Shown here one piece after another: positions 1 to 56,770 of a DNA stretch of 64,000 bases. The notes under the pieces are model-generated. The model searched no databases and was not told the origin of the DNA. It saw only the letters and a program-made list of their open reading frames with translations. The translations under genes and the position numbers were made by a program. The stretch's first letter is position 1. Every line of letters starts with the position of its first letter. The stretch lies in contig JAFCMP010000131.1 in assembly GCA_017506865.1 (NCBI GenBank), forward strand, positions 62,001-126,000, written 5' to 3'. Origin of the DNA: Tribonema minus (taxonomy: Eukaryota > Sar > Xanthophyceae > Tribonematales > Tribonemataceae).

Positions 1-3000
1 GCCGCTGCCGCTGCCGCCACGCTCTTTGGCTCCGCGCTTTTGCGTGCTGCGCGGCGGCGGCTGCTCGTCGTCGCCGCTGCTGCCGCCGCCGCCGCCGCCG
101 CTATCGCCATCCGCGCCGCCATCCGATGCTCCGTTTGCCGCTGCGGCATCGGCGGTGGCGGAGAGGGGCTTGGGCGGCTCTGTGCGGTAGCGCTTCTTGC
201 GGCGCTGCTGCTGCTGCTGCGCCTCGGCGCCGTCGCCGTCGCTGTCTGCAGCACTGGCGGCGGCGGCCGCAACGTGGCCATGGGAGATCTTCGGCAGGGT
301 GCGCTGGCCGTCCTGCGTCTGCTCAGGGGGTAGGGTTAGGTTTAGGTTAGGGTTAGGGTTAGGTTAGGATCAGGGTTAGGTTAGGGGTAGGCACAGCGCG
401 GCGCATGGAAACAGCTGGCTGGTGAATTTTTCGTTATCCCTATTATCACGTGGGCCCTTTGACGCTTGTCAGGAGCATTGCTGCTGCAGCTGCCGCCTGC
501 TGCCGCACTGCCCACAGCCATCTGCGGCGGGCTAGCACAAGCGTCAGAGCTTGTCTGAGCTGCTCTCGGGGGCTTTGGTATTGCAGAGTGCGCCGACTGT
601 GCTGCATCTGGGCGGCAAACGGCGCCAAGCGACTGTCTGGATCACACCAGCGTCAAAGTTGAGTTGGGCGACGTGGCAATGCGCTGCGCGTCGCGCGTAC
701 CCCATGATGTACCGCAGCATGAAAACTCAGCTGTCAAATGATGGGCTCTGTACGATCTGGAAGTACCGATGTCATGACAAACACCAGATTACCGAGTCAA
801 GGAGATGCCTCGTGAGTTGTGCAGTCAGCTGTGAGGGCAGCAGTCGCGCAAATTCAGATCTCTTCGCGCATCCCAACACAGCGCTCGCCATGCAGTGTCA
901 TCGCAGGCGTACATCAACTTCAAGACGCAGCCACAGGAAGGTGACGCGCCTGTACACAGCCATGAATGCGCGCAGCTGCAACGGCGGTCCGCCTAGCGCA
1001 ACGACGGCGTCGCAGGCGGCAGCGCACCAATCACAGCCTTGGGGGCGAGGCCGCGCGTGACCTGGGCACGACGGCACGCACCGCGTCCTCCGCCACCACG
1101 CTTCGTTGAAGAAGATGGGACGTAATTTGGATTTTTCACAATATACACTGGAATTACTGAAGGCACCTTGAGCTTGGGGAACAGCTTCTTCATCTTGCTC
1201 TCGTACTCCGCGACGCGTTCCGCGTCCTCCTCCACCGCCGCCGCCGGCGCAGCGCCGTCGCCTGCTGCGTGCTGCTGCTGCTCGCCCTGCACACCGAAAA
1301 AAAATGCATTTGACGTCGTTCAGATGTGGTCGCCATTGAAACACTTTCAGCTCGTCACATGACACGTAGATTTGTGCTTTGCAGCATCGATGTAAACTCA
1401 TCTGGGCTTGTTCGCGCCCTGAGCGAGAATTGATGAAAGTACATTCATTGAGTGCGATGCTCAATGGATGCGGAGCCATACTGCCTGCCGTCAGGCCACG
1501 CCAGTGAGGCGCAAGCCAACGACTGCGCTGGTCATCACCACAGGGCGTGACGTGTGGCGCTCTCGTAGCAATCGTGGTGCGTGGAGCGCTGCTGCTGCTG
1601 CCGCGCCGCAGCCCTGCGCAATCTAACAGTACAGGCACATAGGCTGATTGTCGCTGAACAACGCTGCGGGCGTTTGCTGACGCGCGTTGGGACGCCGCTC
1701 TGCTGCCGCTGCGCGCTCACCCCGCTCGCTCAAGTTGCGCAGCTCGCTTGCGCGATGAAACTGGACAAGACGCAAGCCGGTCGTAACCGTGTCACTGCAG
1801 AGGGCAACGAGTTGCGCATTGAGGGCTGTGGGTGCCCGTAGCGTTGCTGCTGACATTCACATAGCAGTTGCGGGCTGCCTACGCGCGTGCGAGCAGAGCC
1901 GGCACACAAGGGTGTGCCTCTCGGCTCTCATGCGGTGAGCATGTCGTGCGCTGGTGCAGAAGCTGGAAGTCGTCAGTTTTGAGTTGAAGTTGTCAGGTCA
2001 CGGCACCGATGTGATCAGGCAGCCGCGCAGCGTCAGCTGCACGAGCGCGGGCGCCGTGGTGAGCTCTCAATGGTGATGTAGCAAAGTTCAAGTACTTGTG
2101 TACTTGAAGTACATACTTTGCTCACTTACGCTGTCGTGAGTCCATTCAGCATCACCGAAGTTCAAGAACCAACTTCGCTCACCGGCGCGGAAGTGACGCC
2201 GCTAATAGGGCAGCCGCGCAGCGTCAGCTGCACGAGCGCAGGCGCCGTGGTGAGTCGCTTTCAGTGTTCATGTAGCAAAGTTCAAGTACACACTTCGCAC
2301 CGGCGCGGAAGTGACGCCGCTGATCGGGCAGCCGCGCAGCACCAGCTGCACCACCGCAGGCGCCGTGGTGTGCTCGGCACTTGCAAGTTCAACACCCCTC
2401 ATCCATTGGAGGCGACGTGTTGGAGTTGTAGCTTTTGCACGATCACGTTCACGCAGAGAAGCGTCGCTCCAATTTTCAATTACCAATTGTTGTCGAATCA
2501 ACAAAAATTGAAGTAGTTGCGCTCACCGGCACGGAAGTGACGCCGCTGATAGGGCAGCCGCGCAGCGTCAGCTGCACGAGTGCGGGCGCCGTGGTGAGCT
2601 TCTTCACCTCGCTCCACTCAGACACGGCATTGTGGCCGAGGTCGAGCAGCCGCAGCGCTGCGAGCTCAGAGAGCCACACCGGCAGCTCTGATATCCTGTC
2701 AGGGTGGGGGGGGGGGGTTGGGGCATAGGGCCTGAGAATCACCGCCAACGCCACAGCGATGGTGGGACGGCGGTAATGGGCGGGCTTGACAGCAGCGGCG
2801 GCAGCGGCATGGGGCTCAAGAACCGGCGCAGCGCCGCAGTGGTGGTGGACCACTGGTGGTGATGGGCAGGCTTTACGGCAGCAGCGGCAACAGCAACAGC
2901 AGCAGCAGCAGCACCGCCAGTGAGGACAGCCGCGCGGACAGCCGCAGCATCCCATAGGGCAAACAGCAGTTGGCTACGACCTGATGCGAATGCATAATAA

Positions 3001-6000
3001 ATGGTGTCGCAAGCATGACCAAGGGTCACCTGTAACTTAGGGAGGCAATGCTGCCGACCGAACGCGGAATGCCATGCGCTGCCAGGGAACAGAAACGCTG
3101 ACCTTCATACGGACAATGCAGTGTATCGCAAAGGCGTACATGCACATGACGATTCGCAATTGGCGGTTGGCGGGAGCGGCGCGGTGGCGATGTGAAGGGG
3201 GTACAGTGGGTGAGGGGGTATGTATGGAAAAATGTTCGTGAACGGCCTGCTGCACATAAGCAAATGCAGGCAATCGCCATGAAGAGCACAGGGCGAGGCT
3301 TTGCTGAAGCTCATATGATTTCGTTTTGTCTTCAAAAACTGCATGATCCGCAATCCTCATTTAAGGCAAGTGCTGCGATGTCACTGTCGCAACATGATGC
3401 GTCTGATACCACATTGAGATTGCTGCTGGTTTGAAAACACGTGTGTTCGAAACTCAAGGCTCCTGCACCTATGCACCAATGGTGTTCACTGTTGCTTGCT
3501 AACCCTCATGCTAACCCTAACTCCAGCTCCAACTCTGTTTGCAGGTCCCGCAGCAGTACATGCTGGCGTGAAGCCCTCCAACCAGTGCCCACGATAACTT
3601 GAAGTGCAGAAATGCCTCTTGGTGTGGCGGCTGTAGAACACACGATGACTTCGTATGAAAATCACGTCACAACGCCGCGCAGTGGGCGCCCTTAAAGCAT
3701 CGTGTGCTCAATCTCACAGCTCTGTAGCCCCTGCAGGTCAGCAAAGGCACCCAGGTGACTGTGAAAACAGCATTGTAGCTAGGCTTAGGCTTCGAGTCAA
3801 GAATCTCACAGCCCTGTGGCCCCTGCACGTTCAGCAAAGACACCCAAGTTCCAGCAAAACTAGTGTTGTAGCTAAAGTTAGGCTTCGAGTCAAGAATCTC
3901 ACAGCCTTGTGGCCCCTGCACGTCCAGCAAAGACACCCATGTTACTGTGATAATATGGTTATTAGTTAGGGTTAGGGTTTGACTCGGACAATCAAGCCAC
4001 AGCGCTCACCTGTTGTGAGCCAGCCGCAGCTCCTGCAGCAGCGCGCACGCGCTAAGATCGGGCCTTTCCGACAGGTTGTGTGAGAACATGGTTATTAATT
4101 AGGGTTAGGGTTTGAGTCGGAAACTCAAAGTCACAGCGCTCACCTGTTGTGAGCGAGGCGCAGCTCCTGCAGGAGCGCGCATGCGCTGAGGTCGGGCATC
4201 TCCGACAGCTGGTTGTGCGATGCCGACAGCTGTGCGCGCGCGTGCGAGGCGAGGGAGGGGCGGTGGTGATGAGCGCTGCTGATGATAGCTAGCCCTAACC
4301 CTAGACCTAACCCTAACCTAACCTATGAGTAGCTGCTACACTCAGAGCTTTGATGTGAGGAGCACTACCGTTGCACACGGCGGACAGCGGTGGTGTGAAG
4401 CACAACTTACTCTAACCTTAGCCCGATCTCTCACCCAAACCCCAGACCCTACTTCTACCCATAATCCACAAATGCTAGCTTGCCAATGTGAGCGACTGTA
4501 ATGAGCGCTAGCGGCGTGCGGCGCAATGACACCAGGCTGGGGCACAGTACACGCGCTGATACTGATGGCGGAGCACTGGAGAAATTGTGGTGAGCGCTGA
4601 TGCAGGCGTGTTGAGCGCTGCTGGAGGCGTGCTGAGCACTGATGTAGGCGTGCTGAGCACTGATGAAGGCGTGCTGAGCGCTGCAAATGGCGTGTTGAGC
4701 GAGGCATGTTGAGCACTGATGAAAGGCGTGCCGAGCGCTGGCTCACCTCTGTGAGCATGGCGAACTTGTCCAGGCCGCAGCAGCGCTCGTAAAAGCAGCG
4801 CTCACTACGCTCTGTGATGATCGCAGCAGCAGCGCTCGGCATTGCGGCACCGCGCCTCGCAGCAGCAGCATCGCGCTACGCAGCGGCAGCACCGCGCCTC
4901 ACAGCAGCGCTCATCACAGCAGCAGCGCTCAGCATCACACCAACAGCAGCAGCAGCAGCAGCGCGCGCAGCGCTCCGCAGCAGCGCGCGCTCACCTTGGT
5001 GAGCATGGCAAGCTTGTCCAGGCCGCTGTCGCTCAGCGAGGCGATCGCGTTGTGGCTCAGCACCAGCGTGTTGAGCGCCGCCGCGACGCCCTTCTTCCAC
5101 CACGTGCGCGGCACGGCGGCGATGGCGTTGTCGTTGAGCACGAGGACTTGGAGCCCGCGGAAGGCGCCGAACACGGCCGCCGGCACCGTCTTGATCTGCC
5201 GGAGGGGAACGGTTAGGGTGCCAAGGAGTTGAATTCCGTGCAGCGAAACAGAATCTTGCTCAGAGAGAGTGTGCTTCGATGTGCTCTTGTCAAACAGTCT
5301 GGTCATCCTGTGCAATGGTTCTCGCAGCATGTCTGCGGCAATGTGCTTCGGGCGCGGTGTTGACCAACAAGCTGTTCTCGGCGAGGGTGCCGCGGGGGTT
5401 CAGTGCAGCTGGGAGTGCGCGCTCACAGCTCGGTGAGGCGGGGCGTGGTGAGCGGCGCGCGCATGAAAAGGGAAGCCGTAATGATCAGCAAGGGGGGGGC
5501 TTGCTGAGCAGTGTGCACGATGCGCGCTCCCGACACTTGGCAAGACTGGGCACGCTGAGCACTGGAGTTCTACTACTGTCTGATGTGATTAACAAGCGTG
5601 CTCTAGAAGCACATATGATGTCATCTAGAGTTATCGTCAATGAGCAATTATACACTTTTGCCACGAGGCTGTAGTCTAGACCTATGCAGACTCTGATAGC
5701 AAGCTTGGCATCAGTGACCTGGCCACTGTAAGCGACAACTGATACAAAGTACATAGCCGTCAGCGAGAGTTGATGAAAAGGACACAAGACAGGCAGCGCG
5801 CATGGCTCACCTGGTTGTGAGCGGCGTTGAGCACGTTGAGGTCTGGCAGGCAGCGCACGCCGTCCAGACCCTCCCCCGTCAGCTCATTGTTGTCCACCTG
5901 GCGGCGGCAGCGACAACGCATGACAAGGTGATATGTAGGGTACACGTTTTGAAACATGCTGGAGGGACATTGAGCGCATGGCCAGGGTGTTGCTGGACAA

Positions 6001-8720
6001 GCGAGGATGAGATCCGCATTTGCGTCACTTACCAAATGGGTTAGGGTTGGGGTTGGGGTTAGAATTAGATTAGGGTTAGGGTTAGGGTTAGCAGGACGGT
6101 ATGCCACATGCGCACGGTCCACCGGCACGCATTCGACGTGTGACAGGGTATTTCGAAGGTTGCAGAAGGGCAGTGGAGCTAACCCTACTCTAAGCCTTAC
6201 CCTAGCTCCACCGTCACATGCTGGCTGCCGCAAAGCGGAAGTGGCGACAGTGGCAGATGAGCGACGGAAGTGGGTTATGCCTTAGCCGCGGAGCAGGCGC
6301 TGCTGATGCATACATGCATACATCCGTGAAGTACCCCACAAGAGCGTTTGAGCGAGTGCAGCATCCGCAGCACAGGACCGCACGCACAGCTCCGCAGGCG
6401 TGCGCGTATTGTGTGCAAGCGAGCGCCGCAGCTGCTCGCACGCTGTCGAAGCGGCGCACACGATCACCAGATAGTGTAGGTTATCAACATCACGATCTTA
6501 AACTGCGCGAACAGGTCAGCAGTGCTCGCCTTCAGGTAGCACAATCACCAGATACAGTACCCGACAACACGATCTTCAACTGCGCGCACAGGCGGCAGCG
6601 CTCACCTTCAGGTAGGTGACCAGCGTGCAGCCCTGCAGGGCGCGCAGCCGCTTGAGCTTGTTGCCGCCGAGCTCCAGGCGCCTGTGCAGCAAAAAATGAG
6701 GCAGCAGCGTAGCAGCCACGTAATGTGTACCGTTGATCAGCACCTCTTGCAATACCGTTGATCAGCACCTGTTGCAATACGGCGCTGTTGCACAATTAGG
6801 GCTACATGCCCGAGCTACAGGCGCCTGTGCAGCGCGGAGTGAGGCAGCAGCGTACTTAGCAGCGACGTGGTGCTACGGTTGATCAGCACCTGTTACTATG
6901 CGGCGCTGTTGCACAATTAAGGTTACATGCCCTGGTTGACGTTTGCACGTTCTTATTGAAGTGAAGTTTTGTTTGCGAGCTGCTCGAGATCAGCTCCACA
7001 TCATTGGTTCAGGTGACTCAGCAATCCTCAACTGGCATGCATAAGTTTGCTATTGATGGTGCACACCAATATCATTAGCAAAAAAAGCAGGGTGTCGCAG
7101 ATAGTGGCAAAGTGCTGTGCACGAGAGCCAGAGCGACGGTTTCACATCACATGCATGCTTTTAAACAAGTGGCGGGTGTTTTGCTGCTTTTCACAACCTG
7201 AGGAGGGGCGAATGGCAGGTATCGGATTCAGGGTGTTTAACGCGTTGTTTCGCACAGCAGCGGCTCCGCACACACTGCACATGCTGCCACTTCCAGGTAC
7301 GCTGAGAGAGCTGCAACAGGCAGCACGGCGTGCTGTGAGACAGGGGCACTTCCAACTCTACCAAAGGTATGTGTACTATCTGGTCAGCCTCTCTCAACCA
7401 GGGTTGGGTTAGGGTTAGGTTAGGGTTAGGGTTAGGGTTAGGCACATGTACACCTCCGCCCGTCGCAGCACGTTTTTGGTGCGTCGCGATGGCCCCGCTG
7501 CACGAGACGCAGCCACTGGGATCGCTGCAAGCACGCGCGACCCCTGTTTGCAAAGGCGCTCTGCGAACGAACACGTCACTCGTACTATTTCAGTATTTCT
7601 TCCAAGTACTGTACTTCAATGGTGTGGCCTCGCGCTGCTATCTCGATGCGAGTAATTCAAAAAGTTGATTGCCGTCAACTGCGCGTTGCGACTTCGCGGC
7701 CGTTGGCATCGCGAGCGTCATAGCGCCTGAACACGCGAGACAGCTGTCATGGCACGCAAGGCTAACAGTGCCCGCTCCAAAGATGTCGAAGCACTGTGCA
7801 GCCGTATGCCCGCTTCAGTTGCTGGGGCGCTGTCGGCGAGTACCTTACATTTTTGTTTCATGCTTGTGGTGGTAGTTGACTGCATACATCAACCCATAGC
7901 CAAACTGACATCCAGGCTGGTGCGCTCAAAGCGTTTGACGGCATGACAACTCGTAGTATGGTTTGTTGTTTGCGGTGCTCTGCGGGATACAAAACTCAGT
8001 CCTTCAAGAGATGTTTCGACCTGGATCGGCGCTATGTACTGGTTTGGGTGATGTTAATAAGATTCAGTGCTGGTAACATAACAGGAACACGGAACCAGCA
8101 GTCATCACACACTTCTGCAGCGCACATGCGCCCAAGGCGACACACGTGTGCTTCGCACGTAGCCCGCTAAAACCCGACTGACTGGGCGGTATGGATTGTC
8201 CTGAAAACGGGTAATTATTGTAAGCAAGAAATTGCCAGCCTTCACCCATCTACTCAAGCTATGCGGAAGAACACAGGGAACCGACAACAATTTGGTGTCA
8301 GCTCTCCCAGCATTTCTAACACCGAATACAGCTTCTCGATTCAAATTACAGTCTTGTGCTGCAGATTCAGCAGCTGCATGCGCCGTCGCATGACATTGCT
8401 ATTGTTGAAGACACACAAAAAAATCAGAGGCGTGCCCTGAAACTGATTTCGTTGCCAAGTTCTGCACTCTGCACCTTCAATGTAGAGAGTAACGCACGTG
8501 CTAGCTTGCATTCATGCATCACGCGGAGCATAATCAACATCTCCGTGCCACCAAAAAAATGCACTCATCTACTGTACCTGAGAGAAGGCAGCTGCAGAGT
8601 TTCGATCTTCTCTATCTTCCTCCCAACCAACTTCAGCTCCGTGCATTCCGCTGCACTGACAACGCCAAGCTCCTCCAGAACCTTCTCGGTCGTAAGTTTC
8701 TTGATTGCAGGAAGGCTCAT
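1..8720 (-). CDS. Leucine-rich-repeat protein, 8 exons, C-terminus beyond window
   Basis: Exons in coding order: 8720-8578, 6681-6606, 5897-5811, 5195-4995, 4229-4144, 2695-2527, 1286-1167 and 318 to beyond base 1. All junctions are GT-AG and phases match, giving 400 codons in the window. The protein starts MSLPAIKKLTTEKVLEELGV. About nine LRR units follow, with cores such as LRRLELGGNKLKRL, LQVLVLNDNAIAAVP, LNTLVLSHNAIASL, LQELRLAHNRISELP and LRLLDLGHNAVSEW. The repeats end with EYESKMKKLFPKLK plus QDG, the cap typical of SDS22/U2A'-like LRR proteins. The last exon is disordered, with a Gln run, a basic RRKKR patch and Gly/Ser/Asp-rich sequence. LRR proteins of this shape are protein-interaction scaffolds. 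The partner here is unknown and I do not recognise a specific orthologue. The acceptor of exon 8 could also be six bases further in (exon from 312). Exon order and phase are strong; the start is the first ATG of the frame. Confidence 0.85.
331..390. repeat. Interstitial TTAGGG-type tract
   Basis: About nine imperfect TTAGGG/TTAGG units lie in the last in-window LRR intron, immediately upstream of the exon 8 acceptor in gene sense. There it reads CCCTAAC. Confidence 0.9.
1997..2606 (-). repeat. Donor-side exon-edge array, LRR exon 6
   Basis: The last ~60-70 nt of LRR exon 6 with its donor recur three times in the following intron, near 1997-2065, 2177-2255 and 2297-2372. The true edge is at 2521-2597. 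At least two copies still read LVQL.LRGCPISGVTSAP in an open frame, and the 2177 copy keeps a GTGAGC donor. Confidence 0.85.
3711..3960. repeat. ~92-bp intronic tandem repeat, about 3 copies
   Basis: The block beginning ATCTCACAG and ending in the shared sequence CTTCGAGTCAAGAATCTC recurs at about 3711, 3802 and 3895 inside the LRR intron. No exon homology was seen. Confidence 0.75.
4003..4229 (-). repeat. Donor-side exon-edge duplication, LRR exon 5
   Basis: Exon 5's tail plus GTGAGC donor at 4138 onward is repeated at 4003-4074 with the same TTAGGG-containing intron start. The period is 135 bp. Confidence 0.85.
4291..4326. repeat. Interstitial CCCTAA tract
   Basis: About five imperfect CCCTAA units lie in an LRR intron. 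This is one of the few tracts with TTAGGG, not CCCTAA, on the gene's sense strand. Confidence 0.85.
4593..4781 (-). repeat. 21-bp minisatellite plus copy of LRR exon 4 donor edge
   Basis: About six imperfect copies of a 21-bp unit built on GGCGTGCTGAGCACTGATG run to about 4740. They are followed at 4741-4781 by a degraded copy of the exon 4 tail and GTGAGC donor (true edge 4989). Confidence 0.7.
6041..6091. repeat. Interstitial TTAGGG tract
   Basis: About seven imperfect units (GGTTAGGGTTGGGGTT, then TTAGGGTTAGGG) lie in the LRR intron between exons 2 and 3. The sense strand reads CCCTAA. Confidence 0.9.
6456..6616 (-). repeat. Donor-side exon-edge duplication, LRR exon 2
   Basis: Two copies of a ~76-bp unit, each ending in the LRR exon 2 tail (CTTCAGGTAG on the plus strand). 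The true edge is at 6606 and the copy near 6529. Confidence 0.7.
6671..6935 (-). repeat. Acceptor-side exon-edge duplication, LRR exon 2
   Basis: The exon 2 start with its acceptor (GCGCCTGTGCAGC on the plus strand) at 6677 recurs at 6819, followed by matching intron including a shared TTGATCAGCACCTGTT block. The period is 142 bp. Confidence 0.8.
7401..7442. repeat. Interstitial TTAGGG tract
   Basis: Six to seven TTAGGG units lie in LRR intron 1. The sense strand reads CCCTAA. Confidence 0.9.
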
Positions 8721-9589
8721 CGTGCGCCCAGCCTGCGATGCCTAGCAAAAGCCTGGCCTCGCGCAACCGCAAGTAGGAAGTTCAAGTACTTAGTTCAACT
8801 TCAAGTCGGGGACCAGGATACCTGAGTGGTTGCAACTTTTTGTGTTCCATTGATGGGGGTGGCCAATCGATCAATAATCATGACAACATCACAACAATAC
8901 GTTTCAACAGTGCAAGCAGCTGTGCAACTGCAATGCATCCTGCAGCATCATTTATCGTGATGCATTAGCAGCGTCTGGGAGCAGTTGCATGCATGCAGCC
9001 AGCAGGCAGACGGATGGAGCAAACATTGAACCACAATGACACTGCACGGCGGAGTACGCTATGCTGTCGTATATTGAGCTACATCCAGGCCACCACCACG
9101 AGCTGCAATGTCAAAGCGGTGCACGGTGGCAAGGACGCTGATGCCCCGCTCCTACACGTGTGTTGCGTGCCTGGAAGGCAACGCTGCTGCACTGCGTACT
9201 ATCGGACCAGCGGGCGCGTTGTGATGATTGTATTGACGACCACCTGTGTGTGCAACGATGTGTGCTGTCGTAATTTCTGATTTGTCTGTGCGCCTTCCCA
9301 AGCTACAAAGGTGCGCATGCATGGCCGCCGCTGCACTGAGCAAAGGCAGCAGCTAGCACGAGACTCAACATACCGGATGCGCGCACCAAGTAATGGCACG
9401 ACTGGTCTAATGAATGCCGCGCAGAGCAACCCCACGTTCCCATGCTGCTGGTTGCTGCAGCCAGGAAGCACATGCTGGCAACCCCTTAAGTGTCGATTCG
9501 AGCGTCTTCGCTACAGCTGCGCCATGCTGTGCGCACTTCAAGTACCAAGCGCAACGTCCGCTGCTGCAGCAGCACGCAATGCGTTGCGC
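8721..9589. other. Intergenic region, LRR promoter side
   Basis: About 870 bp upstream of the LRR start codon. It must hold the LRR promoter. I see no TATA box or gene. It joins the 3' repeat array of the glycosylase-like gene. Confidence 0.5.
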
Positions 9590-10085
9590 CTCAGCGGCAA
9601 GAGACTGCTCGTGCGCCGACACCAGCGCAAATTTCTTCGCGATGCTGTGGGAACTTTAAGCGCCAAGCGCGCGGCGGCAGCACACAATGCACCTCCGCTC
9701 AGCGGCGACGCACTGCGCGCCCGCAGACAGCTGCGCGCCTTCTCTATGACGTTGTGCGCTCCTACAGCACATCAGCCGAGCAACACGCCAAGCCACAGAA
9801 CCAGCAGCAGCGCGCCACTTCCATGATGCCGCGCGTTCCCAAAGAATCAGGCGCAACACGGCGAGCAACAGCACCGGCAGCAGCGCGCAGCGAGCGCATC
9901 ACGGCTCAGCGGCGGCGGCGGACCACGCGCGCGCAGACAGCAGCGCGCACTTTCCATGATGCCGTGCGGTGCATCTCGAAAGAATCAAACGCAACACGCC
10001 GAGCAGAAGGAACCGGCAGCAGCGAAGAGCACATCAAGGCTCAGCGGCGACGGCCCGCGCGTGCGCAGACAGCAGCGCGTCGTAC
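9590..10085 (-). repeat. Array of terminal-exon ends downstream of the glycosylase-like gene
   Basis: The end of the last exon recurs past the stop codon: the plus-strand block CTCAGCGGC...GCAGACAGC.GCGCG appears near 9592, 9697, 9905 and 10039, progressively diverged. Spacing is 105-208 bp. Confidence 0.75.
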
Positions 10086-13000
10086 GCGCGGATCAGCGCG
10101 CCGCGCACGGGCGCGCTCTTGTGGTACAGCTGCAGCTGCAGCTCCTGGTACTGGCGCCGCCCCTCTGCCGTCTCCACGCGGATGGGCGCGGGGTCGCAGC
10201 CGAGGTCGCCATCGAACCTGAAGATGGCGCACGCGGGGTGTGTGTGTGGGGGGGGGGGGGGCATCAGGGGGAAATGTAAGCTACTGTTGAAGTTTTGGCG
10301 TTAGCGCTGCAGCGTTCAAAAGCGCCGATTGTTGGCAGCTGCTTGCCTGTACTTGCTGTGCGTGTGCGTCATCACGTGCATTGTGGAATGGTCTTACACG
10401 CGGTGTCACGAGTGGCCAATGACTTGCGCAGGTCTCTGTACCAGTCGCAAAATGGCTAGGCGCCGCCGAACTGGCTCGCCAGCGCACCCACTGCAAGCCC
10501 TCTGTGGCCTCCACAACGCCTGAATACAAGTCAAATGCCGCAGGCAGAGCGCAGGGCGAAATCTTTTGAGCCTGCACTGACGTTCTGCAAATCCAAGCAT
10601 GAACTTCAATTGATACTTGAAGTTTGCACTCGCGCCTGCGACAGCAAAGGCCCGTAGCAGAAGTTCGCCCCCTACCATCAAGCACAATTACTGATTCAAA
10701 GTGCATACATATTGTAGATCTACTGTTTCAGAGTATGTATACATAGAGATGGCACAAGCGCCGTGCGCCACTCACGCTGTCAGGTCGTATGGCGACGCGC
10801 GCATGTCTAGCTGGCGCGCTGCCAGCGCCACCTCCAGCGCATCGACCACAATCTCGGAGGGCACGTAGGGCGCGGCCTTCATGGCCCACTGCGGCAGCAC
10901 ACGTGACAGCGAGCGTGGACGCTCTGAGACTGCGGCGCAGGGGCGAGGCCCAGTGCAACAGCACGCGCACGATAAACAGGAGAAATGGTGCTCTCCATTA
11001 AAAGGCTGCACGCACGCACACAGCTAATTGCGCGCCAAGGCAGTGACGCCTTATACTTTGAGCCCCGAGAAATGAAGCCCTCTGCAAACTTTGAAGTATA
11101 GAAGTAAATACAGGCAGGCTTTGCTTATGAAGCCGGGTCCCCGTCAGTCTGAGAGTTGGATTGCCGAGCATGGTCAATCAGGCACAGTTCAGTTGCCGGT
11201 GCGCTGTCTGTGCACCTTCAAATCAGCAATCTGCGTTTGATTAGCCCACTCAGCGCTGAGGTCCAAAGGTGCTTCCAGAGCCTTGCCTTGACTGGCTCTC
11301 AAGGCATTGCAGAATGCTGTCGCCGAAGCACGGCGTTGCAGCCTAGCACTTCAAACGGCGAGCTCTGTCGGAAGCACACGCCTATCTCTGAAACACGACG
11401 TTGCAGCCTAGACACTCCAAGTGGCAAACCCTGCAAGAAACAGAAGCCTGTCTCTGAAACGCGACATCGCAGCCGCCAACCTCTTGCGGCGACGCCCTCT
11501 GCCGCGCGCGCCTTCAGCAGGCCCATCGCGGCGTGCACGCAGCCGGGCTGCTCGAGCCACAGCGCTGCAGCCTACTAGCACTCAAGGAACGCAAGTCTGT
11601 CTCTGGGAAAACACACGGCGCGTCGCAGCCGAGCACTTCAAACGATGACCTCTAGTGCGCACGCGCACCTTCAGCAAGTCCATCGCGGCGTGCACGCAGC
11701 CGGGCTGCTCGAGCGCGGGCTGCGCGGCGCGCGTGGGCGCGTGCGCGTTGAGCGGCGCTGCGCCCTTTGCGAAGAAGCGGTAGGCGTCGAAGTGCGTGCA
11801 CTGCAGCGCGCCGCGCGCGCCCGCGGCGGCGTTCAGCTCGCGCTGGCTCACGCGCAGCGGCAGGGCCTGCGAGGGGGCAGAAGCCGCAGCCGCAAAGGTC
11901 ATGAAACATGCAGCATGCTAGAGAAACACGCTTCCAGAAGTACGCTTCAACTCTGAAGTACTCATTTTGGTTACTACATGTCATTACAAGCGCTCAAAGT
12001 GTTTGGAGTTGAGGAATACACTGTGTCTGCGCAAACGACGCGCGCAGCGGCAGGGCCTGCGACAGGGGGGCAGAGACCGCGGCCACGAAGATCATGAGAC
12101 ACGCTTCACTGACACACTTCCAGGATTACTTCAACTTTGAATTACTCAGTGGTTGCATATCAAATATCGCGCAGGTCACGCTGGCGGGCAGGCCGGGGGA
12201 CGCCGGGCCCCCTGGGTGGCGCTGTTGCCGCATACTTACAGGGATGAGTCGTGCTCTCATAATGATGAGTCATACTCAACGAGGTGAGTCGTGAGCTGCG
12301 ACGCGACGGCGCATGGAGATGCGGAGCATGCGCATCAACCCGGTGCTGCATGAACGCCTCGACCTACTCGCAACTCCAAAAACAGACATGAAGGCCAGCA
12401 GGTCCGTACAGGGTGTACTGCGAGTCCACTAACTGCAGGTATTGTGCAAGTGCAGCCGCTGTCGATGGTTACATGTACGTGTATGGGACACGCAAACAAT
12501 GACAGCAGCGCTCAGCAACGTGCTGTGGCACAACAACAGCTCTGACGCGAGCACAGTGCAAGGCTCGCACGAAGCGCGAGTTCAATGAAGACAGCTCTTG
12601 AACCTAGGGACTTCTGGCGACCTTGCGTATGGAGCAACACTAAGTAGTCCATGCCTTTCACAGACACCATTTTACACCAGTGACAAGCTCCCAAAGTGGA
12701 CACGATAGTGCGGGCCTTACTCGCTTGCGCCACTGCACTTGCTTTAGAAAGTCACACCATTGCTCATCCAATGCATGTGCATCATGCCAGCACTATGCCA
12801 GACAGGCATGAAGAAGCACGGTACAGGGTTACAACAACAATGTGATCTTGGTGCACAACGTTCTCTCCCGCCAGCACTACGCGCACACATGTCCAAAAAC
12901 CCTGCGATCCTCCGACTGCACCGCTGCTCGCCTGATGCTTGTTCACTCCGCCGTCGCCGACGTCGTACAGCATCGCCCACTCGTGGAGGCCGAAGCACAG

Positions 13001-16059: not shown

Positions 16060-16650
16060 CCCGGAAGCCGTTTTGCTTGCGTGGGGCCGCCCACAATGCG
16101 GTTGCGTCCGCGGCGTTGCTGCGGCACGACCGGAGGGGAGGTGCTTCAGCCGCCGCGCCTCAGTACAGCGGCGTGTGCGCGTGCGGCCTCGCGAACCTGT
16201 GCACCTACCGAAAGCCCCAAAGCGGTGCTGCTTGGGTGGGGCCGCTCATAGTGTGCGCGGCGTTTGCGGCGTTGCTGCACGACCGGAAACACTTCAGAAC
16301 AGCGGCGCGCACACGTTGCGCTGCCCCACGCCGTCGAAGGCAAGCGCGGCGTAGCTGACGCGCGCGCCGTCGGCAGTAGTCGTCGCCAGCACGGCGTGCT
16401 GCTTGCGTGGGGGCGCTCACGGTGCGGCGCGGCGGCACACTACCGGAGAGGGGATGCTTCAGCCGCCGCGCCTCAGAACAGCGCCGTGTACGCACGGCGC
16501 TGCACCTACCGAAAGCCCCAAAGCGGTATTGCTTGGGTGGGGCCGCTCGCAGTGCGGGTTGCGTTTGCGGCCGTCGCGGCACACACAACTGCAGAGGAGA
16601 TGCTTCAGCCGCCGCGCGTCAGAACAGCGGCGTGTACTCGTGGCGCTGCC
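16060..16650 (-). repeat. Array of terminal-exon ends downstream of TSEN34
   Basis: About four copies of a ~130-180-bp unit. Each contains GCTTG.GTGGGG.CGCTCA followed, in most copies, by TTCAGCCGCCGCGC.TCAG.ACAGCG, the latter matching the last codons and stop of TSEN34. Copies lie near 16071, 16229, 16399 and 16530, and the true terminal exon end is at 16619. Confidence 0.8.
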
Positions 16651-20854: not shown

Positions 20855-21127
20855 GACATTGGCCAATTGCAGAGCTCTTTCATTTGGCAAATCTCACGAA
20901 CTTCAACGCGCCGAGTTCAAAATCGAACCTCAAAATCAGATCCCCGAGCGAGGCGAGGACACCAGGGACTGAGGGTGGTATGGTGGGTGGGGGCGCCTTC
21001 TGAAAGCGTTATCCTCTGCTCCCTGCACTCAACGCGCCTCAGGGGACAGCAGGTGCTTAGGTTTGGCAGATCGTTGACTCTCCAGGTGCCAGTTGGTACA
21101 TAGCGCAACAAAAGCGGCGCTGCAGCC
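20855..21127. promoter_or_regulatory. Divergent promoter region between TSEN34 and SMARCAL1
   Basis: The 273 bp between two divergent start codons must hold both 5' UTRs and both promoters, unless non-coding first exons lie further out. I see no clear TATA box. The SMARCAL1 start codon has a purine-poor GCAGCC context. No other motif is claimed. Confidence 0.5.
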
Positions 21128-48715: not shown

Positions 48716-51700
48716 ATGGCCGAGCCACCTGCGATCGAGATCCCCCCCTCGCTCGCCGAAATAGACGCGATCAATCACAGAGAGGAGCTCATGGAGCGCT
48801 CGCTTGAAATTGGCAGGATGGTGCGGGAAAGGTGAGCTGATACATTCCTGTCATCGTACACACGAGCTTGTGCCAGCGTGCCATGGCGTCGTATGACAAA
48901 GCGGCCTCCCCTATCTTGTTGCCATTACACGTGTACCTTCCATTTTTCATGTCTGCACACCTAGTACCCTCAGGGAGTTATGATTGCTGCATGAGCCGCT
49001 GATTGTCTGTGCAGTCTATGATCATTGACACGCATACGCTTTGTTGACTAGTAGTAAATCAGCCTGGCAGTGGCGTCCCATTGATGTACACTTAGAGCAT
49101 CGAACGCGGCTGTCGCTGGTTAGACCAGGCCGTCAAACAAACAGCTGGGCACATTCCGCTGCTGTCTGCCCGCTTGATTTCGGCAGCGCCACTGTGACGA
49201 GAAAACTCTGTGCTAGACGAATCACCTGACACATCTTCACGGTAGGTAGCCATCGCCATCATGCAAGGTCTGTTGGCTCAGCGGGCCTCACCCCCCCCCC
49301 CCCCCTTCCCCCACGCGCGCGCGGTGCAGCCTCGCGACCGCCAGGCCGGCGTCGCCCGTGAGACACATCCCAGAGTTCAGCACGCAGCACGTTTCTGCCA
49401 GGTGCGCTTGACGTCCGCACACGCGCGCGCGCTCGATGCATGCTTCAGTGCTCAGCCATTGGCATATAACGCTGTGCATCAGGCAGAGGACACCGGCGAC
49501 GCGCACGCGCACGAGCGCCATCCTGTTGATACGCGCGCGCGCGCATTCGTGCTTTCATTTACTGATGCAGATTCGACTTGTGTCGTTTCAAAGCGTGTGC
49601 TGTAGCGGGCGCAGACGCCGCTGACGCTCGCAACTCCAAGGATCGCTGTTTTTCAACAGGGGGGGGGGGGGGGGGCGGGAGGGGGCGGCGCACGCGCTCA
49701 CTTGGCGGCGCCAGGCAGCTTGGCAGGCCTTCCCCCATTGTGTGCTCTCGCAGGAAATACCACGCGGCGATGTAGGAGGCTCTCAAAAGCAGGCTACGTG
49801 ACGGAGCTGGCGGCTGGGGGGCTCCAGGAGGCGTGGGGGGGTATGGGGGTGGGGGGGGGTGGGGGGGGGGGCGTGCACTACGGGCATACATGCTGGTACT
49901 GTACCGGCGCTGGTGACCGCAAAAAGGGGCGATGCGTTGTCCTACGCATTTCCTAGCTCCTCTCGATGGCCCTGTCGATGGCCGCCCCCTCGTCCAAGTG
50001 GCACGAGCAGCAACAGCAGCGGCGGAGGAGGCAGCGGAGGAGGCGGCAGCGGCTGCTGTCGCTGCTTGTGCCAGGGGGACGGGAGCGCGGCGATCGACAC
50101 GGCCATGGAGAGGAGCCAGAATCAACGTAGGCTGCGCATGCCCTCCAATCAGCGCCGCTGCATTGTGCCTCTGGCAGAACGACACGGCCGTTTACCAATC
50201 AGCAGCCTACGCCAGTCGGGGTCTGCGGAGTACAGCGATGTACTCAACTGAGGGGGGCGAGGGGGGGGGGAGGGGGCGGGGCGCAAGCAAGGGGCAGAGG
50301 GGGGGGGGGGGAAGTATGAAACGCGCATCACGCATCGAGCGATGCGGGCGTGCACTTGCCCTGAGACTCTCTGCCAGACTGGCATCTTTTGCAGTATCGG
50401 CGCACTCACTATCTCACGCATCTACATGATGCCATGACAACTTCTACCATTCGAGCTCTTGACCGCGAGTCTCTGGATGCAGCGCCTCGAGCGCCCTTGC
50501 AGCGCGCGTCGCTGTGTCGCCCGCAAGCACCGCCTAGCCTCGTGGTTTTTCAACTGACCCATCAGATGTACTCGAAGTATTGCATCGCGCGGGAGCGCCT
50601 GATGATGAGCAGCTGCAGACCGTGTTGAGCGCTGCTGCCGTATGCGCGGTACACTGTGACTCTCCTCGTACTTTCATCACACACGCGCCTTCTGAAATAC
50701 TGAATGCTGAGGGTCTGGTTACATGCGTGCTACCGGCGGGCACTCTCTGAAGCTCGTGAGCCTGTGCGTAGAAAGTTCTACTGTATGCGCACAGACTGAA
50801 ACGGGCTGCTTGTTGTCACTCCGTTGTCCTGTTCTCGCGACAGGGAGTTTGAGCAGCTCAAGAAGGACAATGCTGCCCTTGTGGTGAGTCACTGATACCG
50901 CGACGCGTGCACAGCGCTCAGAATGATGATGTGGCACTGCTCAGCACTGCGGTCATCACGAGTGCAGCTGTTGTTGGAGCGCGGCAGCGCACGCGCGCGC
51001 AGCGTCACAAGTAGCTCGTGAAGTGCATTTCCCGCAGACTACTTGCAGTGCGGCATTACTAGTTGACGTTGCATCTTACGCGCAACGCTGCGGTGCACGC
51101 GCAACATGTGACGCTCCACGTCAGTCGAGCCCCCCCCCCCCCCCCCCCTCTCATCCCCCCCACCCCCTGCACGCATAGCTTGGCGCCCCCAGTACCCTGG
51201 CAAATGCCCTCTTGCGTAACTGTTCGCATACATTTCGACCCACGCGGCGCTTCCGCATGGCAGAGACATTACGTTGGCGTCAACAGCGCGCGCGGGAGTT
51301 TGTTGCCCCCGTCATTGACCGTACATGGCAGTGCTCGATCGACTTCAACTCTCCACTTAAGTTCAAGTTGTGCCGTCGAGGGCGCACCGCACTTGAAGTC
51401 AACGCTTGCCCTGACCCTTACGTTTCAAGACGCTACCCCTGCAGCATATTGGTCGTTGCACCTTCACCTGATGTTCACTTGACGCTGCTGACGCGTCTTA
51501 TTGAAGTTGCTTGAGAGCTGACGTTTTGCGAGCGCGGCACGTCACCTCCAAAAGTTGCACACGAAACGACACTTTGACAACTGCACACTATGCGAGATTC
51601 TGCGCACAACACCATTGTCACGTGACGCACGCGCGCTCCGCCGCCTGCCTGCCTGCACAATCACCTTGAACTATTGCACATGAAGTGGCACTTCAACAAC

Positions 51701-54700
51701 TGCGGAGCGCGAATTTTGGCGTACAAATCCCTGTCGCGTGATGCGCGCGCCCCGCCGCCTGCCTGCTTGCCCTCAGCGCATGGTCCACGTGCGGAACGAG
51801 GCGATCGAGGCGTTGCTGCAGGAGGCCAATGAGATGGCGATGGACACGCGGCCTGCGAGCACAGACATTGAGGTGAGGATACCTCAATACCTCAAGTAGT
51901 ACTTCAAGTATGAGTGACGTTGAGGTTCAGGTGCGATTGTGGCGCTGCTGCATGAGGCCAATGAGATGGCGATGGGCACGCGGCCTGCATCCACAGACAT
52001 TGAGGTGAGGATACTTCAATACTTCAAGTAATACTTCAAGTATGAGTAATATTGAGGCGCCGCTACAGGAGGGCAACAAGATGGCGATGGACGCGCGGCC
52101 TACGTGCACAGACATTTGAGGTGAGGAAGTTTCAAATAGTACTTCAAGTGTGAGTGAGGACGAGATTGGGATGCAGCAAGAGACTGCTTTTTTGTTGTTC
52201 AGCTGCGTTCTTCTGAGGTCACCCCATGCGCGCTCACATTGCAGAACGTGCGCACAGGAGTTTAGCAGCGCCCTTCTGCACAAATATCACCGCAGGCGAA
52301 CCAGACTGCACCTGTGTACACAAATACACTCTGGTGCGCTAGTGGATTGACCAATGACTACTGAGCAAGGACTCAATTTCGCGGCAACTTTAACACTACG
52401 CGCTAGAGCGCGGGTCGCGATGCTACAGGGCAGCGATGCCCATGGACAACAAAGGCATTTGTTCCAAACAGGAAAAAATAGTTGCGTTAAGGTACTTAAG
52501 GAAGTGTGCAACAGGTAGCAGCGTCACGGTTGTGCAGCGTCTAGACTCCGTTTAGCAGAGGCAGCCGCACTCTGTGTGTGGGCCACATTGTGCTGTTGCA
52601 ACTACGTGCAAAATGTGTGGGCCACACCTTGCAGTTGCAACTACGTGCAAAGGCTAGCGTACAATATGACCGCGTTTAGTTTACAGCTGTGCGCCACTTT
52701 GATGAGCACTGTCACCAATGTAATTGCTGCGCACGAATTCAGCAACGTACGCAACATCTTACTTTTAGTCCATCAATTTGCTTGACAAACTGCTGCTACA
52801 AAGCATTGTACCGCCGTCATTGCAGCGGGTAGCAACTGCTGTGGAATGCAGGGTCCGGCATCACTGCCAACATTGTCCGAAAGCGCCAAACTGCATTGTC
52901 AACTTCAACTCACCTCAGTCTCGTCATCAGGCAGCACCTCTGAGGGGCGCCGAGGAGTTCCGCGCGCGCAATTCGCCTGCATGGCCACATGATTGCATCG
53001 CGGCTCTTCATACCCCTCATTAACACAGAGTGCTAAGCGATGATTGCTAGTCAGTGCTCAGCGCCTCAGACTTGATCACCATCCAGCACACTGCGCACTG
53101 CAATACGCTACCTGCGGTACACATTAGTATGCATCATGCATTGTACATGTGATATTCACCAGGCGACACGCGCGCGCCGCGTGCAGATGCATGTACTTTT
53201 TAGTAGTTCTCGCTTCGGGCGCAAAAACGCCCAGATGGTGGGTGTCCAGCTCGCTACCAGAACCTTCATGTATCCTGTGAGCACCTTGAAAGTGTCAAAC
53301 ATACATGCATGCGTATACTTCTATGACATTCGTGGACGATGTGCTGCATCGCGTGCAGGTGCGGGACCTGACCGCCAAGCTCGCACAGCGGGAGGTGGAG
53401 CTCATGGCGCTGCGGCAGCAGCTGGCCGCGCTGCGCATCGATCACGAGCGGGAGAAGACGAATGCGCAGGTACCAGCACACGCTGTATCATACAGTCTAG
53501 ACCATACAGCCTGTATGTTCTAGACTTTCGTGTGCGTGCCCGAGCATGCGGGTGAACACGGCAGCAAGAGCAGCGCGTTGCTGCAACACGCGGCTGGCCG
53601 CGCTGCGCATCGATCACGAAAGGGAGAAGGCCAATGCGCAGGTGCGCGCCGCTTCAATTGCACACGCGCTGTATATTCTAGAGCTTCGATCCAATAGCAC
53701 GAGAGAGAGAAGTCCAATGCGCGCGCCACTTCAATTGCACCCGGGCTGTATGTTCTAGAGTTTCAATTTAAGAGCACGAGAGGGAGAAGGCCAATGCGCA
53801 GGTACGCGCCAATTCAGTTGTCCCTGCACCTCATCACCAGTACATAGCGTATGTTTCAGACCTTCAGGCGTGCTCAAACGTGCGGATGAACACGGCAGCA
53901 AGAGCGCGTGCGTGTCGCGCACTTGTATAGCCCGTTTGGCATGGCTGTACAGTGGGAATGCGAGGCTGCCCCCCGATGCTTACTGTAAAAAACTTGTGAA
54001 CGTCATGTGAAGTGGGCGTGCCTCTGGTATACCCAGCCCGGTTTTCGCGCTGCAAAGTGCGAGAGTGAGTAACAACGCTCAGCGCCTTCACAAACTTTAT
54101 CGTTGCGCACGAGCGCTGTAAGGCGAGCGCTGCTGCACCGCGCCTCGCTGTTGTCCGACATGGCGTTCATACGTAAGGGGGTGCAACGACTGCGGTGCGC
54201 GTGCACTGCGCAGAGGGCATGGATGCTTGCGCCACTGGCGCCAATCCTCGCAGTGTGCCATACTTGAAGTTGCTGGAGCTTGACTGCAAATGGGGGAGGG
54301 GAGGCGCAAAACAGGCCTTGCGTCAAGGTGACCCACCATACCCTCTTGTTGCTCCGCCGTGCTGTGGTGACGAGCAGTTTGTTGCCATGCCGGGCGCTGA
54401 AACAGCTTCACAGTGCCAGCATGTGTGCTCTGCCGCAGCCGTGGCTTCAACTCAGCGAGCGGCAGCAACAGATGCCTGTGAGCAAATAGCGCGGGCGGCG
54501 GCGCGTGCATGTGACGCGGGACGAGTGATGATGCTCGTAGGATATGCAATTGTGCTCCGTTGAAGTTGAAGACACGTGCTGACGACCACGGGGCGTACAC
54601 CTGTGTCACGCTGCCGCAGTCACGGGCAATAATACTCATCGCAATTCGCACGCGCTTTTTCTCCATTGCCACAGATTCTTCAAAGCCGTACATAACTTCG

Positions 54701-56447
54701 CTGACGCACGACAACGCTAACAAAGTGAGCGCTGCCTCCTTCCCCCCCCGCCCCCCCCTCCCCCCCCCCACCGCAGCGCTACCTCGAGCAGCGCAATTGC
54801 GCGGCGCGCGTCGGACGTCGCGCATCTCACGGCGACAGCACGTGTTTTCCCTGCTTTGCCGCAGATCCTTCAAATCCGTACAGCCCTTCGCTGATGTGCG
54901 ACAACGCTAACAATCTGAGCACTGCCTCCCTGCCCCCCCACCCCCTTCCCCCTGCCCCACCCACCGCAGCGCTACCTCAAGCAGCGCGACCGCGCGGCGC
55001 TTGATGTGCGACAACGCAACTAATCTGAGCGCTGCCCCCGCCCCTTCACCCCCCCCCCCCCCGCAGCGCTACCTCGAGCAGCGCGACCGCGCGGCATGCG
55101 ACCGCGCGTCCCACGTCGCGCAGCTCACGGCGACGGCGCGCCGCCTCCAGGCGCAGATCGCGCAGCGCGACGGCCTCATCGCTGAGCGCGACATTGCCAT
55201 AGAGGGGCTGCGCGGCGAGCTCGCCCGGCGGCGCGGGGACGAGGGGGGCGGGGGGCAGGGGGCGTGTGAGGGGGAGGGGGGGGGGGCAACCGAGGGGCGG
55301 GCGGGGTCGAGGACGCGGAAGTCAGGCACTGCCGCTGCCGCTGCCGCCGCCGCCGCGGTCATGATTTCCGCGGCGATGGCGGGGGCGCGCGATGACGGCG
55401 GCGGCGGCGGCGGCGGCAGCGAAGCGCACAGCGATGAGGATGCGGGCACGGACGCCGGCGAAGGCGACGACAGCAGCGCTGCGACCGAGGTGCGTTGCGC
55501 CTTTGCGTGCTCGCAGAGTGCGCCGGAGTTTTTGGATAGCGGGTGTGGTAGGTGTCCACGGGCGCGCGTGTAGTGCAGCCTGTGGAATCTGAATGCCATC
55601 CCTTTCTGCCGGAAGTGTTGTCAAGTAATGGTGCTCGTTCAGTGTGAAGCGCAGACTGCCGTGTGAACGTCACATGCATGCATACATGCACCGGATTCAT
55701 GTCGATCATGCAAAGGCGACAGCGCGCGGGGCATCTGACCTTCAATACCATATTGCTGTCATGATGGTGCCAGCTGCAAATTCTGGTGCCAAGGTGCACG
55801 AGCGATGTTATGGTGGCCAACTGAAATCGATACCGCCAACGTTGTGTGATCTTAGACGGGTAGATTGCGGTGACAGTCAAAGTGCCTCGCGTGCCTGTTT
55901 TGGCAGCATTGTAGGCTGCGCTGCACTTACCCTAACCCTAACCCGAACTGCTTGCGCCGTGGTGGGTTCAGTGTGTTCCTGCAGTCATGAGCATTTGTCG
56001 TGACGTAAAGCGTTGCTCAGACATGCAGCCCAGCCGGTAGTAACGACGCAGTTCATGTAAACAGCAGGCTTGCAGGTGCCTGCACTGCCAGACAAGCGGA
56101 CATCTCATGCGGCCGCCACTCAACAAAAACGCGACCAGACCAGTAGTCGTAGCCCTACCGCTAATTACATGCTTTGCCACGGACGCTTTGAGGAGAACAC
56201 TAAGTCCCTGAGTAAAGCGCGTGAATCGACAGCAATGGCTCCTCGCCGATCGCTCTTGCACGGCAGAGGCGGGAGGAGCACGGCCGGCGTCACGCACGGC
56301 AGAGGCGGGAGGAGCACGGCCGGCGTCACGCGCGGCACGGGGATGCGGACAACGATGCAACAGAAGATGAAGTGCACGAGCCGGACGAGCCGCCGCACAC
56401 CGCCGCATGCATCCGCAGGCTTCATTCCAATTCGCCTAAGCGCGCAG
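48716..56447 (+). CDS. Coiled-coil protein of unknown function, 3' end uncertain
   Basis: Exons: 48716-48831, 50844-50883, 51777-51872, 53359-53469, 55067-55489 and 56303-56447 (or from 56267), about 310 aa so far, phases consistent. The N-terminus is MAEPPAIEIPPSLAEIDAIN. Heptad-rich helices follow: LMERSLEIGRMVRE, EFEQLKKDNAALV, NEAIEALLQEANEMA, LTAKLAQREVELMALRQQLA and RLQAQIAQRDGLIAERDIAI. They predict one long coiled coil of about 200 residues. The rest of exon 5 is low-complexity Gly, Ala and Asp. Exon 6 is charged (DADNDATEDEVHEPDEPP) and is less certain. It either splices at the GTGCGT after 56447, in phase 1, or reads on to a stop at 56489-56491. I found no convincing downstream exon. 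No family is recognised. Exons 3 and 4 are followed by, and exon 5 preceded by, tandem copies of their edges, as in the neighbouring genes. Confidence 0.65.
51800..52135 (+). repeat. Donor-side exon-edge array, coiled-coil gene exon 3
   Basis: The exon tail GAGATGGCGATGGACACGCG through CAGACATTGAG with GTGAGG donor ends at 51872 (true), about 52004 and 52120. Periods are 132 and 116 bp, with ACTTCAAGTA motifs between. Confidence 0.92.
53410..53810 (+). repeat. Donor-side exon-edge array, coiled-coil gene exon 4
   Basis: The exon tail GAGGGAGAAGGCCAATGCG with donor recurs at 53470 (true), 53642, about 53725 and 53802. The 53642 copy keeps about 50 nt of exon homology. Confidence 0.88.
54720..55110 (+). 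repeat. Acceptor-side exon-edge array, coiled-coil gene exon 5
   Basis: A poly-C tract, CGCAG and CGCTACCTCGAGCAGCGCGA occur with exon-start copies at 54777, 54970 and 55067 (true). Each is preceded by a GACAACGC.AC.AA.....GAGC block. Confidence 0.92.
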
Positions 56448-56770
56448 GTGCGTGTGCGCTCATGAAAATGTTGAAGTTCCAACTCGCCTAAGCGTGCAGG
56501 TGCGTGCGGACTCACGAAAATGTTGAAACTCCAACTCGCCCAAGCGCGCACTTTCGTGCGGGCTCCGAAAATCTTGTTGAAGTTCTAACTCGCCCAAGTG
56601 CGCAGGTGCGTGCGGGCGCACAAGAGTGCGGTTGAAGTTGCACGACAAAGTATTGCGTGACTTGTGTGCTTCTGAGTGGTTCACTGTTCACGCCGCCGCA
56701 TGCAGTCGCAGGCTGCACTCCAACTCGCCCAAACGCGCAGGTTTGTGCGGGCTCACGAGAGTGTTGAAGT
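56267..56770 (+). repeat. Duplications at both ends of the last recognised coiled-coil exon
   Basis: A 36-bp unit containing GGCAGAGGCGGGAGGAGCAC is present twice (acceptors before 56267 and 56303). Downstream, the exon tail CCAACTCGCC.AAGCGCGCAG plus GTGCGTGCG recurs about four times (near 56481, 56532, 56588 and 56722). Confidence 0.8.

Follow-up and report, generated by a model that had tools for sequence, protein, structure and literature searches.

Exon-edge copies in adjoining introns, probably from recurrent local duplication, in a 64-kb window of the Tribonema minus genome

Several described systems combine local duplication with splicing, and the nearest precedent found is the RdRp gene of potato, in which a tandem duplication across an intron-exon boundary made a new intron (Ma, Lan and Niu, 2016; PMC4974935). 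Herein, a 64,000-nucleotide (nt) window of the Tribonema minus genome (assembly GCA_017506865.1, contig JAFCMP010000131.1, positions 62,001 to 126,000, forward strand) is described, in which many exon edges have diverged copies, splice site included, in the intron next to them. As in the potato case, the duplication crosses the boundary and the splice signals are duplicated with it; unlike that case, which is presented in the cited account as a single event yielding a new intron, the window holds dozens of copies inside existing introns, and no new intron was seen. In the classical intron-gain model, as outlined in a review (PMC3443670) and for Drosophila (PMC2891723), an exonic AGGT is duplicated and the segment between becomes the intron. 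The model shares with the window short local tandem duplication in genes affecting splicing, but its signature, an intron start resembling the downstream exon and an intron end resembling the upstream exon, is missing here (0 and 1 of 37 introns). Introners, reported as mobile families common to many introns (PMC9860276), are similar in that introns repeatedly gain or change sequence; the window, in contrast, holds no sequence family common to its introns (2 matches among 2592 edge probes and 1 among 826 intron windows), which also sets it apart from stwintrons, likewise a shared intron family in the account cited (PMC8469720). Tandem exon duplication also copies exon sequence locally beside its source, but the exons treated in that source are spliceable (PMC9013439), whereas here the copies are only partial and never a complete exon. 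Among the results inspected from searches of the open-access literature, with subscription papers mostly outside their reach, neither exon-edge copies as a general genome feature nor a duplication process tied to exon boundaries was found. Junction-crossing duplication is a known kind of event, and what is remarkable here is its frequency.

The exon-edge copies are real and not a product of chance. All counts refer to this single window and to six multi-exon gene models. Edge probes of at most 55 nt that straddle the junction (up to 40 nt of exon and 15 nt of intron) matched the adjoining intron at 32 of 72 edges. A per-edge shuffle test found a copy at 33 of 72, with all six genes positive: 20/32 in a helicase gene, 5/12 in a leucine-rich-repeat (LRR) gene, 3/8 in geneD, 2/8 each in geneB and geneC, and 1/4 in a tRNA-endonuclease gene, the five non-helicase genes together giving 13/40. 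At the same threshold, probes of the intron across the other side of the same exon gave no match (0/61), probes of other introns gave 2 in 2592, exon-interior probes none in 50, and intergenic probes 4.4% of 724; intron-interior probes (n = 1091) matched in 15.4% of cases one-sided and 26.9% two-sided. One of the 37 introns was left out of the edge tests (<150 nt), and 9 of the 72 edges were dropped as low-complexity in one control row; the window analyses used a complexity filter. The initial annotation of this DNA had stated that most internal exons are flanked by such copies. This holds for exons, 23 of 31 internal ones having a copied edge, and in all six genes, but about half of the single edges are without a detectable copy; 24 of the 37 introns hold one.

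The window has eukaryotic gene structure, with spliced models and GT-AG introns, and a GC content of 57.9% (exons 69.2%, introns 56.5%, intergenic sequence 56.3%). Exon models were produced by a self-made splice and codon gene finder and then cleaned by hand: 16-20 called exons whose peptide repeats that of a neighbour were taken to be decoys and deleted ahead of every edge count, some 12 more weak or terminal exons and one small model (48716-50537) were left out, and exons 8578-8732 and 13725-13846 were taken from another gene-finder run. A further model, geneE, was excluded from the edge counts. PDB and Pfam checks were made on the cleaned proteins only. Pfam supports three of the six genes (helicase, LRR and tRNA-endonuclease), geneB, geneC and geneD having no Pfam match. 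The protein from the joined helicase exons matches solved SNF2 helicases in the PDB in both domains (query 10-240 and about 388-519 of 521 amino acids), the matches leaving the interdomain stretch uncovered; three distant viral-contig helicase matches (32-34% identity) were not used. Self-comparison of the window gave 115 direct-repeat matches within 3 kb, of which 13 were dropped as short or low-complexity, leaving 102; later analyses drop repeat pairs more than 1200 nt apart. Sixty copies were catalogued, and 57 with an exon part of at least 10 nt were kept, the three below that being dropped. The genes and copies are as follows, first on the plus strand and then on the minus strand.

21128..41338 (+): SNF2/SMARCAL1-like helicase gene (the SMARCAL1 name is presumed), 17 modelled exons; Pfam SNF2-rel_dom 3.7e-34, Helicase_C 2e-19; PDB matches
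Helicase exons 1-9 (+): 21128-21916, 22881-23210, 24847-24956, 26268-26364, 27210-27313, 27679-27745, 28806-28934, 30112-30198, 31165-31224
Helicase exons 10-17 (+): 32884-33018, 33907-33980, 35587-35739, 36548-36819, 37616-37752, 39023-39133, 40407-40616, 41267-41338
22642..22778 (+): copy of the 5' edge of exon 22881-23210; exon part 93 nt, intron part 43 nt, AG kept
25070..25277 (+): two copies of donor edge 24956/24957, spacing 133 and 265
26463..26613 (+): one copy of donor edge 26364/26365
26853..27064 (+): one copy of acceptor edge 27210
27903..28156 (+): two copies of donor edge 27745/27746
28271..28691 (+): three copies of acceptor edge 28806, spacing 165, 336 and 505
28998..29130 (+): two copies of donor edge 28934/28935; exon part only 7 nt, outside the counts that require at least 10 nt
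31417..31488 (+): one copy of donor edge 31224/31225
32273..32774 (+): three copies of acceptor edge 32884
33115..33354 (+): two copies of donor edge 33018/33019
34320..34852 (+): three copies of donor edge 33980/33981
35094..35534 (+): three copies of acceptor edge 35587
35944..36040 (+): one copy of donor edge 35739/35740
37051..37448 (+): three copies of acceptor edge 37616
37872..38286 (+): three copies of donor edge 37752/37753
38602..38897 (+): two copies of acceptor edge 39023
39213..39309 (+): one copy of donor edge 39133/39134
39765..40290 (+): three copies of acceptor edge 40407
40741..41055 (+): two copies of donor edge 40616/40617
42456..46409 (+): geneC, unnamed; exons used 42456-42569, 43540-43647, 44178-44265, 45322-45473, 46010-46409
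42836-42892 (+): geneC, copy of donor edge 42569
43978-44044 (+): geneC, copy of acceptor edge 44178
50844..56447 (+): geneD, coiled-coil-like protein without Pfam match; exons used 50844-50883, 51777-51872, 53359-53469, 55067-55489, 56267-56447
51933..52174 (+): geneD, two copies of donor edge 51872/51873
53575..53905 (+): geneD, three copies of donor edge 53469/53470
54702..54998 (+): geneD, two copies of acceptor edge 55067
56451..56823 (+): geneD, about four copies of donor edge 56447/56448, by eye and from repeat clusters
993..8732 (-): leucine-rich-repeat protein gene, 8 modelled exons; Pfam LRR_8 4.8e-26
LRR gene exons (-): 8578-8732, 6606-6681, 5811-5897, 4995-5195, 4144-4229, 2527-2695, 1167-1286, 993-1061
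1984..2374 (-): three copies of the donor edge of exon 2527-2695, also visible by eye
3946..4083 (-): one copy of the donor edge of exon 4144-4229
4734..4788 (-): one copy of the donor edge of exon 4995-5195
6459..6539 (-): one copy of the donor edge of exon 6606-6681
6810..6932 (-): one copy of the acceptor edge of exon 6606-6681
10034..13846 (-): geneB, unnamed, without Pfam match; 5 exons, 13725-13846, 12932-13294, 11669-11866, 10776-10888, 10034-10217
11434..11557 (-): geneB, copy of the donor edge of exon 11669-11866
12041..12154 (-): geneB, copy of the acceptor edge of exon 11669-11866
16619..18992 (-): tRNA-splicing endonuclease-like gene, which we take to be SEN34-like; 3 exons, 18892-18992, 17857-18067, 16619-16804; Pfam tRNA_int_endo 1.9e-13
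17501..17742 (-): endonuclease gene, two copies of the donor edge of exon 17857-18067
16042..16617 (-): exon 16619-16804, copies of its coding-sequence (CDS) end with the stop codon and the sequence downstream; the model has no splice site here
19128..19504 (-): endonuclease gene, copies upstream of the first modelled (ATG) exon, including a CAG + ATG segment

Repeats also occur inside coding exons. One set, with unit lengths of 42 and 27 nt that are both divisible by 3, lies wholly within an exon at 13115-13204, where geneB encodes a serine-rich stretch; another, with 78-nt spacing, lies wholly within the glutamine-rich first helicase exon at 21254-21424. Predicted coding segments with a good codon score and no Pfam match in the parts scanned lie at 42456-46879 and 62355-62928 (+). 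No tRNA genes were found in the window, and no Rfam match there reached the gathering score.

In the 57 kept copies, the exon part measures 10-104 nt and the intron part 1-184 nt. Among the 60 catalogued, 57 carry at least 10 nt of exon together with intron sequence (only 1-7 nt of intron in a few), which bears out the local duplication across exon-intron junctions proposed in the initial annotation. An edge has one to three copies, the nearest lying 76-394 nt off (median 165), and four copies are discernible by eye at donor 56447. The tandem arrangement claimed earlier applies to the 14 of 31 nearest copies that are contiguous with their source; the others are separated from it by intervening sequence. 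Confinement to the adjoining intron (32/72 against 0/61 and 2/2592) and the absence of an inserted introner family (the same 2/2592) both stood. No complete-exon copy occurs in any of 44 gene clusters. Intron-side placement and the claimed outermost position of the complete exon follow from the geometry of duplicating a segment across a junction and are not independent evidence, so that what needs explaining is frequency and placement. The raw median length of introns with copies is 1056, against 777 for those without.

Copying also extends to coding ends at which the models place no splice site. On the minus strand, the endonuclease gene (16042-16721) has its stop-codon region copied, and geneB (9517-10079) its terminal exon and stop region; in both genes the stop codon and downstream sequence are copied downstream; for the ATG exon of the endonuclease gene, the copies lie upstream. 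The phenomenon is therefore wider than splice junctions, and the earlier restriction to exon edges with splice sites describes the junction-spanning copies but not these ends. Taken with the outcomes above, the interpretation offered by the initial annotation is partly supported.

Placement was examined at the level of duplication clusters. The window contains 45, of which 44 overlap gene spans, and 34 of these 44 include an exon end, against 14.7 expected when the exon map is rotated (standard deviation (sd) 2.8; highest value 24 in 2000 rotations); three of the 34 sit at the outer end of a modelled CDS and not at a modelled junction. When all exons are masked, 36 gene clusters remain, of which 20 adjoin an exon (11.4 expected, sd 2.6, highest 20; P 0.0005); masking put 5 of 41 clusters outside gene spans and thus reduced the denominator to 36. 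Strictly intronic 55-nt windows, scored one-sidedly, have a deeper copy in 22/63 cases at the edge itself and in 25/69 at 20 nt from it, falling to 12/60 at 200 nt, 7/54 at 300 nt, 4/51 at 400 nt and 3/40 at 500 nt; intergenic windows give 10/587 and the cross-intron null 1/826. In paired introns scored two-sidedly, the near window exceeds the deep one in 18 and falls below it in 9 of 33 (P 0.019). Two-sided intergenic windows match in 3.6% of 617 cases, against 18-39% in introns, and are thus five- to eleven-fold poorer. The bias to gene bodies is accordingly strong. That to edges amounts to about 1.8-2.3 fold among clusters and, given the much flatter two-sided profile, is rated as moderate. 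The comparison set in advance by the initial annotation, of exon edges with duplications elsewhere in introns, was run within the window, and both the unmasked and the masked cluster counts gave an edge excess; ordinary intronic minisatellites, whose placement would be independent of edges, do not agree with these counts either. A 167-nt unit repeated 2.8 times (30265-30761, +) starts about 66 nt inside its intron and is one of nine gene clusters touching no exon.

These placement data bear directly on two simpler processes. Plain random tandem duplication would need no edge preference if exon-internal duplications were purged and the frozen exon half kept edge pairs recognisable for longer. 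Geometry alone then yields the adjacent-intron rule and the outermost complete exon, and the better-kept exon parts (89.1% against 81.4% for intron parts), the copies in intron interiors (the 15.4% and 26.9% given above) and a two-sided profile almost flat up to 300 nt all agree with it. Yet if frozen exons doubled detectability, an assumed factor, about 22 of 44 clusters would be expected to include an exon end where 34 were observed (P 0.0002); the edge excess remains after exon masking and in one-sided intronic windows, and the intergenic shortfall is five- to eleven-fold, which makes this account unlikely. Alternatively, duplication may be uniform, with deletions clearing intergenic sequence and deep introns while repeats survive in the shelter of selected exons, as would fit both the gradient away from exons and the intergenic deficit. 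We give this little credence, since the far member of a pair lies 76-394 nt into the intron, unsheltered, and the gain in survival, at most about two-fold by our own estimate, compares with a roughly five-fold one-sided gradient.

Composition and motifs were also considered as sources of the placement. GC content was rejected as the driver: the difference between near-edge and deep windows persists in three of four GC bands and is reversed in the fourth (GC at least 0.7, 7 near windows), and intergenic values are low in all four. A near-palindromic 9-mer, ACTT[C/G]AAGT, occurs window-wide (e.g. at 2102, 8798, 35780, 37762 and 52021), with 30 matches on both strands against 0.3 expected. Its 7-nt core, TTGAAGT/ACTTCAA, occurs 77 times against 4.4 expected, at 1.58 per kb in introns, 0.89 in intergenic sequence and 0.14 in exons. 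This core was rejected as a breakpoint or edge signal, having no edge or orientation bias and lying within 15 nt of copy boundaries in only 3 and 2 of 57 cases, against 5% at random. In the green alga Haematococcus lacustris, the telomeric motif is AACCCT and repeats make up 47.3%, mostly short and tandem-organised (PMC7617258). The window likewise has short interstitial TTAGGG-type (AACCCT) arrays, at 345-366, 4308-4323, 6073-6090 and 7406-7440; exon edges are not mentioned in the available H. lacustris account (PMC7617258).

The fate of the copies can be read from their divergence. Identity to the true edge is 89.1% in exon parts and 81.4% in intron parts. Mismatches at codon positions 1, 2 and 3 number 79/894, 71/890 and 141/890 (8.8, 8.0 and 15.8%), or 60/753, 63/751 and 122/752 with geneB and geneD excluded. 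Half of the intron divergence is 9.3%, near the values at positions 1 and 2, and the ratio of divergence at positions 1 and 2 to that of introns is 0.45 (95% interval 0.35-0.56; nearest copies alone 0.46, 0.34-0.62). This ratio points to one frozen coding member and one dead member in each pair, as two coding members would give a far lower value and two dead members about 1, and the excess at position 3 matches silent change added in the true exon. GT is intact in 27 of 33 decoy donors and AG in 20 of 24 decoy acceptors, where 0.82 is expected. The copies, splice dinucleotides included, thus decay neutrally, like dead DNA. They form the arrays of decoy splice sites recognised earlier: 16 of 33 decoy donors and 8 of 24 decoy acceptors score as well as the true site or better, the median scores of decoy and true sites are 6.0 and 6.1 for donors and 4.6 and 5.0 for acceptors, and a score of at least 4 is reached by 23/33 donors and 16/24 acceptors, on a matrix trained on gene-finder exons that still contained some decoys. 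Donors that score like true donors, and acceptors that nearly do, are what would be expected had duplicated edges been retained as alternative or regulatory splice sites. Such a role is very improbable, however, as the splice dinucleotides and exon parts decay neutrally and the copies bear no sign of coding constraint. Complete-exon copies with both splice sites number 0 in the 44 gene clusters against 4.2 expected (sd 1.7, P 0.006), an absence to be expected if splicing were to carry them into the message.

The classical route of intron birth, in which exonic AGGT segments are duplicated in tandem, also involves tandem duplication and splice sites but is extremely improbable given the signature missing from these introns, even if old gains might have lost their trace. 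Assembly artefact is scarcely credible: near-identical copies are absent, which could reflect collapse in a single window analysed as assembled sequence, but the copies differ from their source by 5-25% overall, errors would not make the codon-position pattern, and none of 80 repeat matches of at least 60 nt exceeds 95% identity, as simple assembly duplicates would.

The account that we consider quite probable is that local duplication recurs, with a preference for gene bodies and a moderate one for exon edges, that selection sieves the products, and that the spliceosome uses the site still joined to the exon. Short local direct duplication would recurrently copy segments to nearby positions, acting chiefly in gene bodies and hitting exon edges above random placement. 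The broad spacing, together with over half of the nearest copies being non-contiguous, is read as template switching or repair and not simple unequal exchange, and the mutational step would presumably be replication or repair template switching. Selection would pass intron-side copies lacking a complete exon, since the message is unchanged, and whole-exon copies, spliceable into the message, would be lost. The spliceosome would keep to the site at the end of the complete exon; exon definition is the probable basis of this choice and may be the reason why decoys are harmless, so that decoys as strong as true sites would be free to decay. In this way, introns would gain sequence inward from their ends, with net intron growth as a possible outcome. 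A more far-reaching version is possible but, on present evidence, doubtful: edges would be targets of a dedicated or structurally driven duplication, for instance through replication or repair slippage at a chromatin, composition or transcription boundary between exon and intron, introns would lengthen from their ends genome-wide, and exon definition would neutralise arrays of full-strength decoys.

Several observations weigh against the recurrent, edge-biased duplication preferred here. A single gene, the helicase gene, contributes 37 of the 57 copies. Donor edges (19/37) are not significantly more often copied than acceptor edges (12/37; P 0.16), and the nearest copy is the youngest in 11 of 15 cases (P 0.12), giving no clear age order, so that an age ladder growing from the edge was rejected as not significant. 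The two-sided profile runs from 39% at less than 30 nt through 32-36% at 30-300 nt and 27% at 300-400 nt to 18% beyond 400 nt, partly because deeper decoys are counted too. None of 45 intron parts of at least 30 nt is less than 5% diverged, which fits poorly with a steadily running process; their divergence peaks at 15-20%, which would fit either a past episode of duplication that has since slackened or the merging of near-identical copies during assembly. In addition, the exon models come from our own gene finder with decoys removed by hand, and that the decoys are ignored is deduced from sequence. A few fresher short tandem arrays occur elsewhere, for example at 56258-56337 (36-nt unit, 97%) and 35820-35854 (18-nt unit, 100%).

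If the pattern proves general, it would provide a natural set of duplicated splice sites in which the true one is known each time, and a direct test of how the spliceosome chooses between near-equal sites. Furthermore, it would constitute a sequence record of intron lengthening and reveal a duplication process tied to exon boundaries.

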